DNA from: Gammaproteobacteria bacterium
Lineage (GTDB): Bacteria > Pseudomonadota > Gammaproteobacteria > Steroidobacterales > PWYM01
Direction: 5' to 3'
Assembly: GCA_007693855.1 (NCBI GenBank)
Contig: RECU01000044.1
Location: forward strand, 1-34,511
Length of the DNA: 34,511 nt
The position numbers and the translations under genes are program-made. How positions within the stretch are numbered: the first letter of the stretch is position 1; every line of letters begins with the position of its first letter. Below are positions 19,487 through 23,281 of the stretch, piece after piece. A model generated the notes under the pieces. The model did no database searches, was not told the DNA's origin, and saw only the letters and a program-made list of their open reading frames with translations.

Positions 19487-21568
19487 GTGACAGTAATCAG
19501 CAAGAGCTTTGAGTATGGCGGCCACACCGTCACCATCGAAACCGGGGGCATCGCACGTCAGGCCGATGGGGCCGTACTGGTCCGGATGTCGGATACCGTG
19601 GTACTGGTCACCGCTGTCGGTCAGAAAGGCGTTTCCGGTAACCGCGATTTCTTTCCCCTGACGGTCAACTACCAGGAGAAGACTTACGCAGCGGGCAGGA
19701 TTCCCGGCGGCTTTTTCAAGCGCGAAGGTCGGCCGAGCGAAAAAGAGACGCTGACCTGCCGCCTGATCGACCGGCCGATTCGTCCACTGTTCCCGAAGGG
19801 GTTCTACAACGAGGTCCAGGTCATCGCGACCGTGATCTCGCTCAATCCGGAAGTCGATCCTGACATTCCTTCGCTGATCGGCGCCTCGGCGGCCCTTGCA
19901 CTCTCCGGAATGCCCTTCGCGGGTCCGATCGGTGCCGCCCGGGTGGGCTACATCAACGGCGACTATGTGCTGAATCCGACGTTCAGTCAGCTCGACGAGT
20001 CTCAGCTCGACCTGGTCGTGGCGGGTACCGACAAGGCTGTGCTGATGGTGGAATCCGAAGCCAAAGGCCTCAATGAGGATGTCATGCTGGGCGCCGTGCT
20101 GTTCGGCCATGAGCAGATGCAGGCGGCCATCGAGGTGATCAAGGCGCTGGTCGCCGAGGCGGGTAAGCCCGCCTGGGATTGGACGCCACCGCCCACCGAC
20201 GAAGAGCTCATCGAGGCGGTGCGTGCAGCGGCAGAGAGCGGTCTTACCGAGGCCTATCAGATATCCGACAAGCAGGAACGATACGGGCGTGTGGGTCAGC
20301 TTCGCGCCTCGGTCGTCGAGCAGCTTGCGGGCGGCGAGGATGCCCGCTTTGCGGCTGACAAGGTGGCTGGGGCGTTCGGGAAGCTGGAACGCAAGATCGT
20401 ACGCGAGCGAATTCTTGCCGGTGAGCCGCGCATCGATGGCCGCGACACCCGCAAGGTCCGTCCGATCGACATCCAGGTGGGCTTGCTGCCGCGAACCCAC
20501 GGTTCGTCGTTGTTCACCCGTGGCGAAACACAGTCGATCGTAGTGACGACGCTGGGTACCGGCCGTGACGCCCAGATCATCGACGCGCTGGAGGGTGAAC
20601 GCAAGGATCCCTTCATGTTGCATTACAACTTCCCGCCGTATTGTGTCGGCGAGACCGGGTTCATCGGCTCGCCCAAGCGTCGCGAAATCGGCCATGGTCG
20701 ACTGGCGCGCAGGGGTATCCAGGCGGTGATGCCAAGTGTCGAGGAGTTCCCCTACGTGATTCGTGTGGTCTCGGAGATCACCGAGTCCAACGGGTCGAGC
20801 TCGATGGCGACGGTCTGCGGTACCAGTCTCTCGCTGATGGACGCCGGTGTGCCGATCAAGGCACCGGTGGCCGGTGTTGCCATGGGCCTGGTCAAGGAAG
20901 GTGACCGGTTTGCGGTGCTGACCGACATCCTGGGTGACGAAGACCATCTCGGCGACATGGACTTCAAGGTGGCCGGGACGGCTGAGGGCATCACGGCGCT
21001 GCAGATGGACATCAAGATCGATGGCATCACGCGCGACATCATGAGCCAGGCGCTGGATCAGGCACGTGATGGCCGGTTGCACATCCTCGAGTGCATGAAC
21101 CAGATTATCGATAAGCCACGTGCCGAAATGTCCGACTGGGCCCCGACAATCATCACGATGCGCATCGATCCTGAAAAAATCCGCGATGTCATCGGCAAGG
21201 GCGGTGCGGTCATTCGCTCCATCACCGAAGAGACTGGTGCGAACATCGATATCGACAACGATGGCACGGTGAAAATCGCCTCGGTGGACGCTGCCTCCGG
21301 ACGGGAGGCGCGTCAGCGCATCGAGCTGATCACCGCGGAGGTCGAGGTTGGTCAGGTCTACGAGGGCAAGGTGGCGCGGCTGATGGATTTTGGTGCCTTT
21401 GTCACCATCCTGCCTGGCAAGGACGGACTGGTGCACATTTCGCAGATCTCCGATGAGCGTGTCGAGCGTGTCAGCGACACACTCCAGGAAGGCCAGACCG
21501 TGCGCGTGAAGGTTCTGGAGGTCGATCGCCAGGGCCGTGTGCGGCTGTCGATGCGCGACGTCGACTGA
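19487..21568 (+). CDS. pnp: Polyribonucleotide nucleotidyltransferase (PNPase)
   Basis: PNPase is the phosphorolytic 3'-to-5' exoribonuclease of the degradosome. The 693-residue protein contains two RNase PH-like domains. The first holds [18 protein letters not shown], and the second, catalytic one holds [19 protein letters not shown] and the segment [20 protein letters not shown] after it. A KH domain ([20 protein letters not shown], at about 563-582) and an S1 domain ([20 protein letters not shown]) close the protein. It starts with GTG at 19487, with no clear alternative. The only hairpin after the stop (21595-21620) has no T-run on this strand and serves the opposite strand better. Confidence 0.97.
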
Positions 21569-21588
21569 GCAGGAGCCTCAGGGGGCCA

Positions 21589-21684
21589 GAAAAAAGGCCC
21601 CTGCCTTGCGGCAGGGGCCTCGCTGGCGCTTCTCTGGGGGAGATTTGCCGTGCAGCAGACACTGGGGGAGTTGCGTCGTGCTGC
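21589..21684 (-). ncRNA. Candidate small RNA with two CUCCCCC motifs (pnp-phaR intergenic)
   Basis: No gene is open here, yet the minus strand has every part of a small-RNA gene. A strong promoter (21719-21691) places the start near 21684, and an intrinsic terminator ends it near 21589, giving about 96 nt. Hairpin 1 pairs GCAGCA (21684-21679) and GAC (21677-21675) with GTC (21660-21658) and TGCTGC (21657-21652). Its 14-base loop contains CTCCCCC (21670-21664). A second CTCCCCC (21642-21636) lies in a mostly unpaired stretch before the terminator. C-rich loops of this kind are used by several bacterial small RNAs to pair with ribosome-binding sites. The phaR ribosome site GGGGGAG is exactly complementary. 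phaR has no terminator of its own before this one, so an RNA processed from the phaR 3' UTR is also possible. Confidence 0.6.
21590..21620 (-). terminator. Intrinsic terminator of the small RNA and phaR
   Basis: Read on the minus strand, AGGCCCCTGCC (21620-21610) pairs perfectly with GGCAGGGGCCT (21605-21595) around a GCAA tetraloop and is followed by TTTTT (21594-21590). On the plus strand there is no T-run after the stem, so pnp would not terminate efficiently here by this element. Confidence 0.85.
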
Positions 21685-21741
21685 GATGCAACAATACGAA
21701 ATCCCCCCTGCCGTGTCAAGCGGTTTTTTGCATTGCAGCAG
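21679..21741. promoter_or_regulatory. Inverted TTGC/GCAGCA boxes flanking the small-RNA promoter
   Basis: TTTTGCATTGCAGCAG at 21726-21741 sits just upstream of the -35 element. Its near inverse TGCTGCGATGCAA at 21679-21691 (12 of 13 matching) covers the end of the -10 element and the predicted start. Reported PhaR operators in Paracoccus and Ralstonia are TGC-rich. A near-identical copy lies upstream of phaR (22335-22350), so I propose PhaR as the binding protein. Confidence 0.5.
21691..21719 (-). promoter_or_regulatory. Sigma70 promoter of the candidate small RNA
   Basis: On the minus strand a perfect TTGACA (21719-21714) is followed, after exactly 17 bp, by TATTGT (21696-21691). It lies 37 bases downstream of the phaR stop and has no coding gene to serve in this direction. 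Confidence 0.65.
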
Positions 21742-21755
21742 AAGCGTCGGGGCCG

Positions 21756-22262
21756 CTACTTCTTGTCTTTGCGCGACGCATCATGGGTATCGGTGTCACG
21801 GCCAGCGCGCGGCTGACCGAGCATGGCCTGCCACATTTCCTGCTGCATATTGACCCATTGGTTCCAGTTCTGCTGAGCCATGTCGCGGACCGGCGCCATC
21901 GGATCCACGCCGCCCATCATGTTGGACATCTGGCTGCGCAGTTGCTGTTGCTGGCGCAGAAACACCCTCAGGCTCTGCTCCAGATAGTTGCCGATAAACC
22001 CGGGCATACTCTTGCTGTAGGCGCGGATCATCTCTGACAGGAAGTCCTGCGTGAGAATAGGGTCCCCGTGGCTCTCCTCCTCGCTGATGACCTGCAGGAG
22101 AATACTGCGTGTGATGTCGTCGCCGCTTTTCTGGTCGATGACTGTGAAGGGAAGATCCTCGAGCACCAGCCGACGGATGTCTGCGAGGGTGATGTAGCGA
22201 CTCTCTTCGGTGTCATAGAGCCTGCGGTTCGGATACTTCTTGATGGTGCGTGGCTCGCTCAT
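21756..22262 (-). CDS. phaR: Polyhydroxyalkanoate synthesis repressor PhaR
   Basis: PhaR represses phasin and PHA-synthesis genes and its own gene, and leaves DNA when it binds PHA granules. From ATG 22262 the protein is 168 residues. The N-terminal DNA-binding domain has the diagnostic TIKKYPNRRLYDTEESRYIT, followed by ITLADIRRLV, VIDQKSGDDITRSILLQVIS and a PHA-accumulation domain (QDFLSEMIRAYSKSMPGFIG). The tail is Gln- and Met-rich. A GTG eleven codons upstream (22295) is possible, but family members normally start right before SEPR, and the GGGGGAG ribosome site (22272-22266) serves the ATG. A 16-base TTGC/GCAGCA box lies 73-88 bases upstream. Whether the host makes PHA cannot be seen here, since no phaC or phaP is in the window. 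Confidence 0.93.
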   Translation of the reverse strand: MSEPRTIKKYPNRRLYDTEESRYITLADIRRLVLEDLPFTVIDQKSGDDITRSILLQVISEEESHGDPILTQDFLSEMIRAYSKSMPGFIGNYLEQSLRVFLRQQQQLRSQMSNMMGGVDPMAPVRDMAQQNWNQWVNMQQEMWQAMLGQPRAGRDTDTHDASRKDKK

Positions 22263-22334
22263 GGGCTCCCCCGGTCCTGGCTGTGGCACGAGCACCTGCC
22301 CGCGCCATGGACGTCAGCGTCCTACCTTAGCTGA

Positions 22335-22350
22335 TTTTGCGTTGCAGCAG
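22335..22350. promoter_or_regulatory. TTGC/GCAGCA box upstream of phaR
   Basis: TTTTGCGTTGCAGCAG matches the box at 21726-21741 at 15 of 16 positions. It lies in the phaR promoter region, next to a weak -10-like TAAGGT on the minus strand. This fits the phaR autorepression known in other bacteria. Confidence 0.45.
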
Positions 22351-22357
22351 TAGACGC

Positions 22358-23281
22358 TCAGGGCATGCTGTGCGCCAGTGTCCGGACGCCGGCCAGCGCG
22401 GTGAACCGACTATCCCCGGCAGCCGCTGCCAGCAAGACACCCGCGGGGGCGCCGTCCAGATCACGGGGTGTTGTCCAGCCCAGCCAGCCCAGGCATCGGG
22501 CCATCGCAGCGTCCAGGTCCTGTAAACGAAGTTCGGTGGCTCCCGTCTGCTTGCTGAGTTTGGCGCCGTGCGAGTCGACCAGCACGGGTACATGCAGATA
22601 GTCCGGAGTCGGGAGCTGCAGGCGTCGCTGAAGTTCGCGGTGCGGGTGAGTGGCCTCCAGCAGATCGGTGCCGCGGACGATTTCCGTCACCCCCTGCTCG
22701 GCATCGTCGATGACCACAGCGAGATGATAAGCAGGCAGGTCGTCCTTGCGCCAGATGACGAAGTCGCCTGTCTCCGTGGCCAGGTCGCAGGCCTGTCTGC
22801 CCTGGAGTTGATCCATGAAGGCCTGTGTGCCGTGGGACACCCGCAGTCTCAATGCATGCGGTCCACGCCGACTGCGCGGTGCGGTGCGGCAGGTTCCCGG
22901 ATAACGGGTGCCGCGTGGGCCGGAGGCGGGGTCTGCCGCAATCTCGCGGCGGCTGCAGCTGCATGGAAAGGCTGCCCGCGTCTCGACCAGCGAGTGGGCG
23001 ATGTCCCGGTAGCGTGCCAGCCGGGTGCTCTGCCGCACGACTTCGCCGTCCCAGTGCAGTCCGGCGGCCTCCAGCTGGCGCAGGATGTCGTCAGCGGCGC
23101 CGGGCACCTCGCGTGGCGGATCGATGTCTTCGATGCGAACCAACCATTGCCCACCGCAGGCGTGTGCCCTGAGCCAGCTCGCCGTCGCCGTGAACAGGGA
23201 ACCGATGTGGAGGCGCCCGGTAGGTGAGGGCGCGAAACGACCGCGTGAAGGCTCAGCGGTAGCGGTCGTCGCGTTCCCCAT
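22358..23281 (-). CDS. gluQ: Glutamyl-Q tRNA(Asp) synthetase
   Basis: GluQ attaches glutamate to the queuosine at position 34 of tRNA-Asp. It is a catalytic-core-only relative of GluRS, and this 307-residue protein has that short length. It shows FAPSPTGRLHIGSL (HIGH variant at residues 25-28) and RIEDIDPPRE. The zinc ligands are CSCS plus RYPGTC, and KLSKQTG is the KMSKS variant. No anticodon-binding domain follows. The start is the ATG at 23281, inside the last 29 bases of dksA; no start codon lies between that point and the essential FAPSPTG motif. The upstream open reading has no family similarity. dksA-gluQ order is conserved in gammaproteobacteria. Its substrate needs queuosine, and queF upstream belongs to that pathway. 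Confidence 0.92.
   Translation of the reverse strand: MGNATTATAEPSRGRFAPSPTGRLHIGSLFTATASWLRAHACGGQWLVRIEDIDPPREVPGAADDILRQLEAAGLHWDGEVVRQSTRLARYRDIAHSLVETRAAFPCSCSRREIAADPASGPRGTRYPGTCRTAPRSRRGPHALRLRVSHGTQAFMDQLQGRQACDLATETGDFVIWRKDDLPAYHLAVVIDDAEQGVTEIVRGTDLLEATHPHRELQRRLQLPTPDYLHVPVLVDSHGAKLSKQTGATELRLQDLDAAMARCLGWLGWTTPRDLDGAPAGVLLAAAAGDSRFTALAGVRTLAHSMP

Follow-up and report, generated by a model that had tools for sequence, protein, structure and literature searches.

The window, i.e. the whole stretch of 34,511 nucleotides that was analysed, contains the convergent genes pnp (19487 to 21568, plus strand) and phaR (21756 to 22262, minus strand), the latter coding for a protein with PHB_acc_N and PHB_acc domains that is considered below both as a proposed repressor and as a proposed target. 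Between them, and on the same strand as phaR, lies an element that is supported as a small RNA (sRNA) gene by the sequence tests applied. As stated in the initial annotation, it has a sigma-70 promoter (21691 to 21719, minus strand) made up of a TTGACA hexamer (21719 to 21714), a 17-base spacer and a TATTGT hexamer (21696 to 21691), which is the only promoter-like site in the 1401 bases from 21000 to 22400, where shuffled sequences have 0.2 such sites on average. With a start at about 21685, as judged from the position of the -10, and an end at the terminator, the predicted RNA (body and terminator at 21589 to 21686, minus strand) would be about 96 nt long, in agreement with the length first proposed.

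This RNA would fold into two hairpins followed by an intrinsic terminator, all encoded on the minus strand. Hairpin 1 (21652 to 21684) indeed presents a CUCCCCC motif (21670 to 21664) in its loop (AACUCCCCCA), its stem having 11 pairs with one bulge instead of the nine pairs given earlier. A second CUCCCCC (21642 to 21636) had been recognised as well, but not that its C-run, too, lies in a hairpin loop, namely in that of hairpin 2 (21625 to 21649), which has an inner stem UCUC/GAGA. The terminator stem (21594 to 21621) has the expected GNRA-type loop (GCAA) and subsequent T-run, with 12 pairs rather than 11. The folding z-score amounts to -6.8 for the whole sRNA and to -4.7 for its body without the terminator, and in neither case did any of 200 shuffles fold equally well. 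Among the minus-strand open reading frames of at least 80 amino acids listed, a single one overlaps the sRNA, an 82-codon frame with a TTG start, and the transcript might accordingly code for a small protein. However, this frame extends through and past the terminator, and indels and compensatory changes in relatives seem to ignore it, as judged by eye; a coding function is very improbable, and the earlier statement that no open reading frame fits holds to the extent that the upkeep of the frame in relatives can be judged in this way.

The initial annotation had made its proposal dependent on whether close relatives keep the promoter, the motifs and the hairpin, and all of these are conserved in 5/5 genomes of the genus, although in one of them the contig ends ahead of the terminator. 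Invariant across the genus are the -10, both loop motifs and the TGC and GCA halves of two palindromes at the promoter (see below); variable are the spacer bases of the palindromes and parts of hairpin 1. A covariance model built on 21 sequences (unit types A and B, see below, and the form found in family f5) matches the window from 21590 to 21690 with 72.6 bits. In the underlying alignment 97.0% of the cells are paired and both sides change in 8 of 16 pairs, and the covariation score of hairpin 1 and terminator is reached by 0/500 shuffles; covariation in these two elements is seen in the genus alone (4 sequences), too. As no changes occur in the inner stem of hairpin 2, it provides no covariation evidence. 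Unlike the stems, which vary, loop 1 keeps its CUCCCCC in all 21 sequences. The compensatory changes that had been anticipated for the intergenic regions between pnp and phaR were found in hairpin 1 and in the terminator; as judged by eye, the unit is missing from many phaR-pnp pairs of family f10.

An alternative explanation holds that there is no separate sRNA and that the stretch represents the 3' end of the phaR mRNA with its terminator, the latter being possibly shared with pnp. As just 36 nt separate the stop of phaR (ending at 21756) from the -35 (from 21719) and a scan lists no terminator on the minus strand in the interval from phaR to the sRNA, readthrough from phaR is indeed likely. 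Yet the conserved promoter, the conserved loop motifs and the covarying hairpin 1, together with the presence of the element in genomes of family f6 that have no PhaR match (see below), argue against this explanation, which we regard as improbable.

With respect to its distribution, the model matches 82/296 genomes of the order at E<=0.001, comprising the 5 genomes of the genus, 69 of family f6, which we take to be the Woeseiaceae, 3 of family f5, and 5 with weak matches of 28 to 32 bits (families f4, f10 and f15). A single f6 genome (G083, locus L115) has PhaR and no model match to the sRNA. A class-wide search of 369 genomes gave 35 matches at E<=0.01, of which the strong ones were the two from genomes of the same order (101 and 72.6 bits). 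Outside the order nothing exceeded 32.1 bits in these 369 genomes, under stricter filters that may miss weak relatives, and a class-wide spread was rejected, the other 33 matches, all at or below 32.1 bits, being taken as matches to the terminator though not each was inspected. From this search 30 loci were kept, 28 of them outside the order; a PhaR peptide was found near 0/28 of the latter, and CTCCCC lies within the match in 2/28 (L226 and L242). In the first, the match corresponds by eye to the T-arm and terminator of an apparent tmRNA beside an smpB-like frame, and the second (genome G624) is a weak match of 25.3 bits that contains CTCCCCCC.

The sRNA gene tracks phaR and not pnp. Its placement between these two genes, as first described, is true of this lineage, where pnp is the convergent neighbour, but it is local and not general across families: in f6 and f11 the sRNA likewise lies downstream of phaR, and the next gene resembles by eye a yheT-type hydrolase, while most of the f10 stretches read are convergent phaR-pnp pairs without the sRNA unit (by eye). 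PhaR (PF07879) is found in 169/296 genomes of the order. Downstream of phaR, the unit was present in 19/30 loci of a first set (10 by script and 9 by model or loop motif, one of them truncated) and in 21/60 stretches of a second (11 by script and, among the 49 script negatives, 10 by eye, i.e. 8 of type B and 2 of type D). Type A is the unit of this genus; type B, of family f6, has one loop CUCCCCCGCCCCC followed by a GGAGU/ACUCC hairpin; type C, of family f11, carries CUCCUCC; type D belongs to family f8, and one further form occurs in f5. The homology of types C and D to types A and B is a judgement from position and layout. Among the f6 genomes with the sRNA, 31/69, some of them incomplete, have no PF07879 match; in one that is 99% complete (G009, locus L220) the sRNA scores 101 bits and phaR was not found, and other f6 genomes without PF07879 likewise keep the sRNA at high score. 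The second phaR copies of G004 (L133) and G002 (L134) have no sRNA model match alongside. Both lie by eye directly upstream of an aldehyde-dehydrogenase-like frame, and a similar frame lies downstream of phaP in G000.

PhaR is a PHB-granule-sensing protein that controls phasins. For its homologue PhbF, the operator TG[N]TGC[N]3GCAA is supported by a DNase I footprint, and Ralstonia PhaR was reported to bind phaP at two sites, the start site and a second one 5' of the -35, according to the excerpted text of PMC3206438. The same operator motif is found at the sRNA promoter. One predicted PhaR operator, an exact match to the motif, lies 5' of the -35 (21728 to 21740, minus strand; TGCTGCAATGCAA), and its TGC and GCA halves are invariant in 5/5 species of the genus, while two of its three spacer bases vary. 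A second exact match covers the start site (21679 to 21691, plus strand), with the core TGCATCGCA at 21690 to 21682 of the minus strand, and this TGCN3GCA core is present in 5/5 genus members and at 9/43 f6 loci. A third predicted operator is located upstream of phaR itself (22337 to 22349, minus strand; TGCTGCAACGCAA), where autoregulation is proposed. In total, the 3.28 Mb genome has 66 exact operator matches, of which 4 fall within 705 bases at the sRNA locus, compared to about 0.014 matches expected by chance; one of the 4, inside hairpin 1, may be fortuitous.

In this genome the phasin gene (PF09361) adjoins phaC and a MaoC-type phaJ, and its promoter, as read by eye, has TTGCATTGCA over the presumed -35 and TGCACCGCA where the presumed -10 ends, so that the two-operator layout of the sRNA promoter is similar to that of the genome's own phaP. 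At this locus (L181; G000, C58, 22142 to 26500) phaC is divergent from phaJ-phaP, a further TGCN3GCA box lies just past phaJ, and a TonB receptor plug match is located near phaC. When 11 of the other operator matches in the genome were inspected, phaJ-phaP was the only locus with a PHB gene (genes assigned by eye), and several of the matches fall within unrelated coding sequence. At three f11 loci with a second phaR (L110, L143 and L144), a phasin-like frame follows by eye, and the sequence upstream of it contains TTGCA-N-TGCAA, which is the PhaR operator in a symmetrical version.

In family f6, where 43 of the 69 loci were examined for the start-site box, the latter is present at 9/31 loci from genomes with PhaR and at 0/12 from genomes without it (p = 0.044, Fisher's exact test, uncorrected for phylogeny). 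All 9 loci with the box adjoin phaR, and 19 of the 28 phaR-adjacent f6 loci are without it; altogether, it is missing from 22/31 loci of PhaR genomes. Given this number and the 31/69 sRNA-bearing f6 genomes in which PhaR was not matched, control by PhaR does not make up the core function of the sRNA. Our reading of these sequence patterns is that PhaR control is either ancestral or recurrent and was lost in part of f6. The 31/69 genomes without a PhaR match, the phaR-adjacent loci without box and the fact that the start-site box shares one of its halves with the conserved stem could also be taken to mean that the sRNA represses mRNAs with G-rich leaders while PhaR control is physiologically unimportant, its place beside phaR being ancestral and the boxes partly coinciding with a GCA of the stem. 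This would, however, leave aside the second operator 5' of the -35, with its fixed halves and changing spacer, the similar layout at phaP, and the box missing in 12/12 loci of PhaR-less genomes; we consider it unlikely, if far from negligible.

As to potential targets of the loops, the Shine-Dalgarno sequence of phaR, GGGGGAG (22266 to 22272, minus strand), is complementary to CUCCCCC, the duplex having a predicted energy of -17.1 kcal/mol; pairing as strong is found for 4/287 other leaders at the first ATG and for 11/287 at any candidate start. GGGGGAG precedes phaR in 4/5 species of the genus, G002 being the exception, and it is absent from the type B and type C phaR leaders read. Feedback on phaR was for this reason rejected as a family-wide function and would be local to the genus. 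Elsewhere in the genus, TGGGGGAG before an ATG precedes, by eye, TonB receptors, acyl-CoA ligases, E1-alpha dehydrogenases, SDRs and other genes, but also some short non-genic frames.

TonB-dependent receptors were compared as a class, with no selection by motif, taking all 45 plug-domain matches of G000 with starts set by signal peptide, the motif GGGGAG or GGGGGA, and, as background, ORFs with any candidate start from sampled genome stretches excluding the window. The motif is found before 13/45 receptors of G000 in comparison to 19/268 background ORFs (p = 9.7e-5) and 4/89 exported-like ORFs (p = 1.4e-4), this larger background superseding an earlier comparison of 13/45 with 0/41. In G064, a type B genome from a second family, it is found before 11 of the 48 receptors read out of 61 plug-domain matches, in comparison to 9/269 background ORFs (p = 1.9e-5) and 4/84 exported-like ORFs (p = 0.0024), and since the motif classes were fixed after the first hits had been seen, the result for G064 is the cleaner one. 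Of the receptor leaders read in these two genomes, roughly one in four has an unusually G-rich Shine-Dalgarno sequence; some of these sequences are very long, as in L410 with nine G followed by AG. On the other hand, the abundance of GGGGGAG Shine-Dalgarno sequences genome-wide is not related to whether the sRNA is present, and a rule coupling the base next to GGGGGAG to the loop type (T in the genus, C in f6) was rejected. In two genomes without a model match, the motif was found before 0/15 and 2/15 receptors (a small sample), and before 2/15 and 1/15 of the equally top-scoring receptors of two sRNA genomes; the control counts being no lower, this comparison does not discriminate between genomes with and without the sRNA, and the link to receptors is supported within sRNA genomes.

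In line with the initial annotation, which knew of no described family for this RNA, every Rfam family stayed below its cut-off, both in the window and in 20 relative loci. Near-hits were rejected as far below their cut-offs (for example Betaproteobacteria_toxic_sRNA with 21.7 of 50 bits, Spot_42 with 15 of 80, suhB with 13 of 41), and in the four cases with an alignment it is largely the terminator stem that matches. By its sequence, the C-rich sRNA beside phaR is a previously unnamed one that fits no Rfam family. The 6C RNA of actinobacteria, to which it had been likened, has C-rich loops in two hairpins ahead of a terminator. The same arrangement is seen here, and as a hint at the mode of action the comparison was apt; however, phylum and locus differ, and membership was rejected because the 6C model gave no match at its gathering score or even at E<=10.

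A better comparison is sX13 of Xanthomonas, in the excerpted text of PMC3771888 a structured sRNA whose C-rich loop motifs serve to repress mRNAs carrying G-rich motifs close to the start codon, and which depends on both the loops and the mRNA motifs, has hfq among its repressed targets, acts without Hfq and is encoded downstream of polA in Xanthomonadaceae. Common to both, as far as that text goes, are C-rich motifs in hairpin loops, found here as well, and a regulator gene as target (phaR, as proposed, versus hfq), whereas the RNA described here is encoded behind phaR and in other families, has CUCCCCC instead of CCCC/CCCCC loops and predicted PhaR operators. As its locus is phaR and not polA, it is not filed as sX13, the likeness being one of descriptions and not of compared sequences. 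An invariant CUCCCCC in loop 1 among varying stems would also fit a protein-binding site, and the loops might act as a sponge or decoy on a protein or the ribosome rather than on mRNA leaders, which would be compatible with genome-wide G-rich leaders not tracking the sRNA. In view of the sX13 precedent, for which G-rich mRNA motifs are needed (PMC3771888, as excerpted), and of the enrichment of the complement in receptor leaders of two families, such a role is hardly probable.

Three further systems share single traits with the sRNA. ChvR of Caulobacter represses one TonB-dependent receptor, with whose mRNA it pairs at the start region and above it, is under ChvI-ChvG control, is Hfq-independent and was reported only in C. 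crescentus (PMC6237742, excerpted text). Like ChvR, the present RNA is a structured sRNA directed, as proposed, against TonB-dependent receptors; ChvR, however, has a single target, and PMC6237742 nowhere uses the term 'C-rich'. MmgR (alpha-r8) of Sinorhizobium, which is controlled by NtrC and AniA and represses phasins (PMC8401924, excerpted text), is likewise an sRNA tied to PHB metabolism, but the suhB/mmgR model (RF00519) yields just the 13 bits mentioned above. With the PhaR/PhbF regulon, finally, the sRNA has in common the operator TG[N]TGC[N]3GCAA and the two sites known from phaP, whereas the members described in the excerpted text of PMC3206438 are protein genes; no sRNA in a PhaR regulon was found in the literature searched, most of it non-subscription.

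From the anatomy, conservation and covariation of the element, its operator motifs, its complementarity to leaders and the enrichment among receptor leaders, all of which are read directly from sequence, we infer how transcription, PhaR binding, repression and physiology might be connected. With a probability of about 0.58, the gene encodes a trans-acting sRNA with C-rich loops that is switched by PhaR where the operators have been kept and represses uptake mRNAs with G-rich Shine-Dalgarno sequences. It would be transcribed from its own promoter directly downstream of phaR. In operator-keeping species, free PhaR would occupy the flank of the -35 and the start site and thereby repress the sRNA, until PHB granules bind PhaR and draw the repressor off the DNA, upon which the sRNA would be made. 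Through its CUCCCCC loops the RNA would then bind G-rich Shine-Dalgarno sequences, keeping ribosomes from translating TonB-dependent receptors and some catabolic enzymes, for which acyl-CoA ligases, E1-alpha dehydrogenases and SDRs are candidates. In this genus the sRNA would also repress phaR itself, resulting in a double-negative loop. A wider and more doubtful extension, which we put forward tentatively, is a switch for storage satiety, in which PhaR titrated by PHB would free the sRNA to silence outer-membrane nutrient receptors, catabolic genes and phaR by means of its anti-Shine-Dalgarno loops, and in which part of the order would have kept the sRNA as a general regulator of uptake after the loss of phaR.

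If it is true that an sRNA belongs to the PhaR regulon, this would add another locus and another repressor to the class of sRNAs with C-rich loops, and the PhaR-less relatives would offer a natural test of the role of the sRNA without the sensor. There would then be a direct route from the granule to the silencing of uptake and catabolic genes in trans, acting in bacteria with dozens of TonB receptors, as indicated by the 45 and 61 plug-domain matches of the two genomes, and the carbon reserve of the cell would be linked to its appetite for nutrients.
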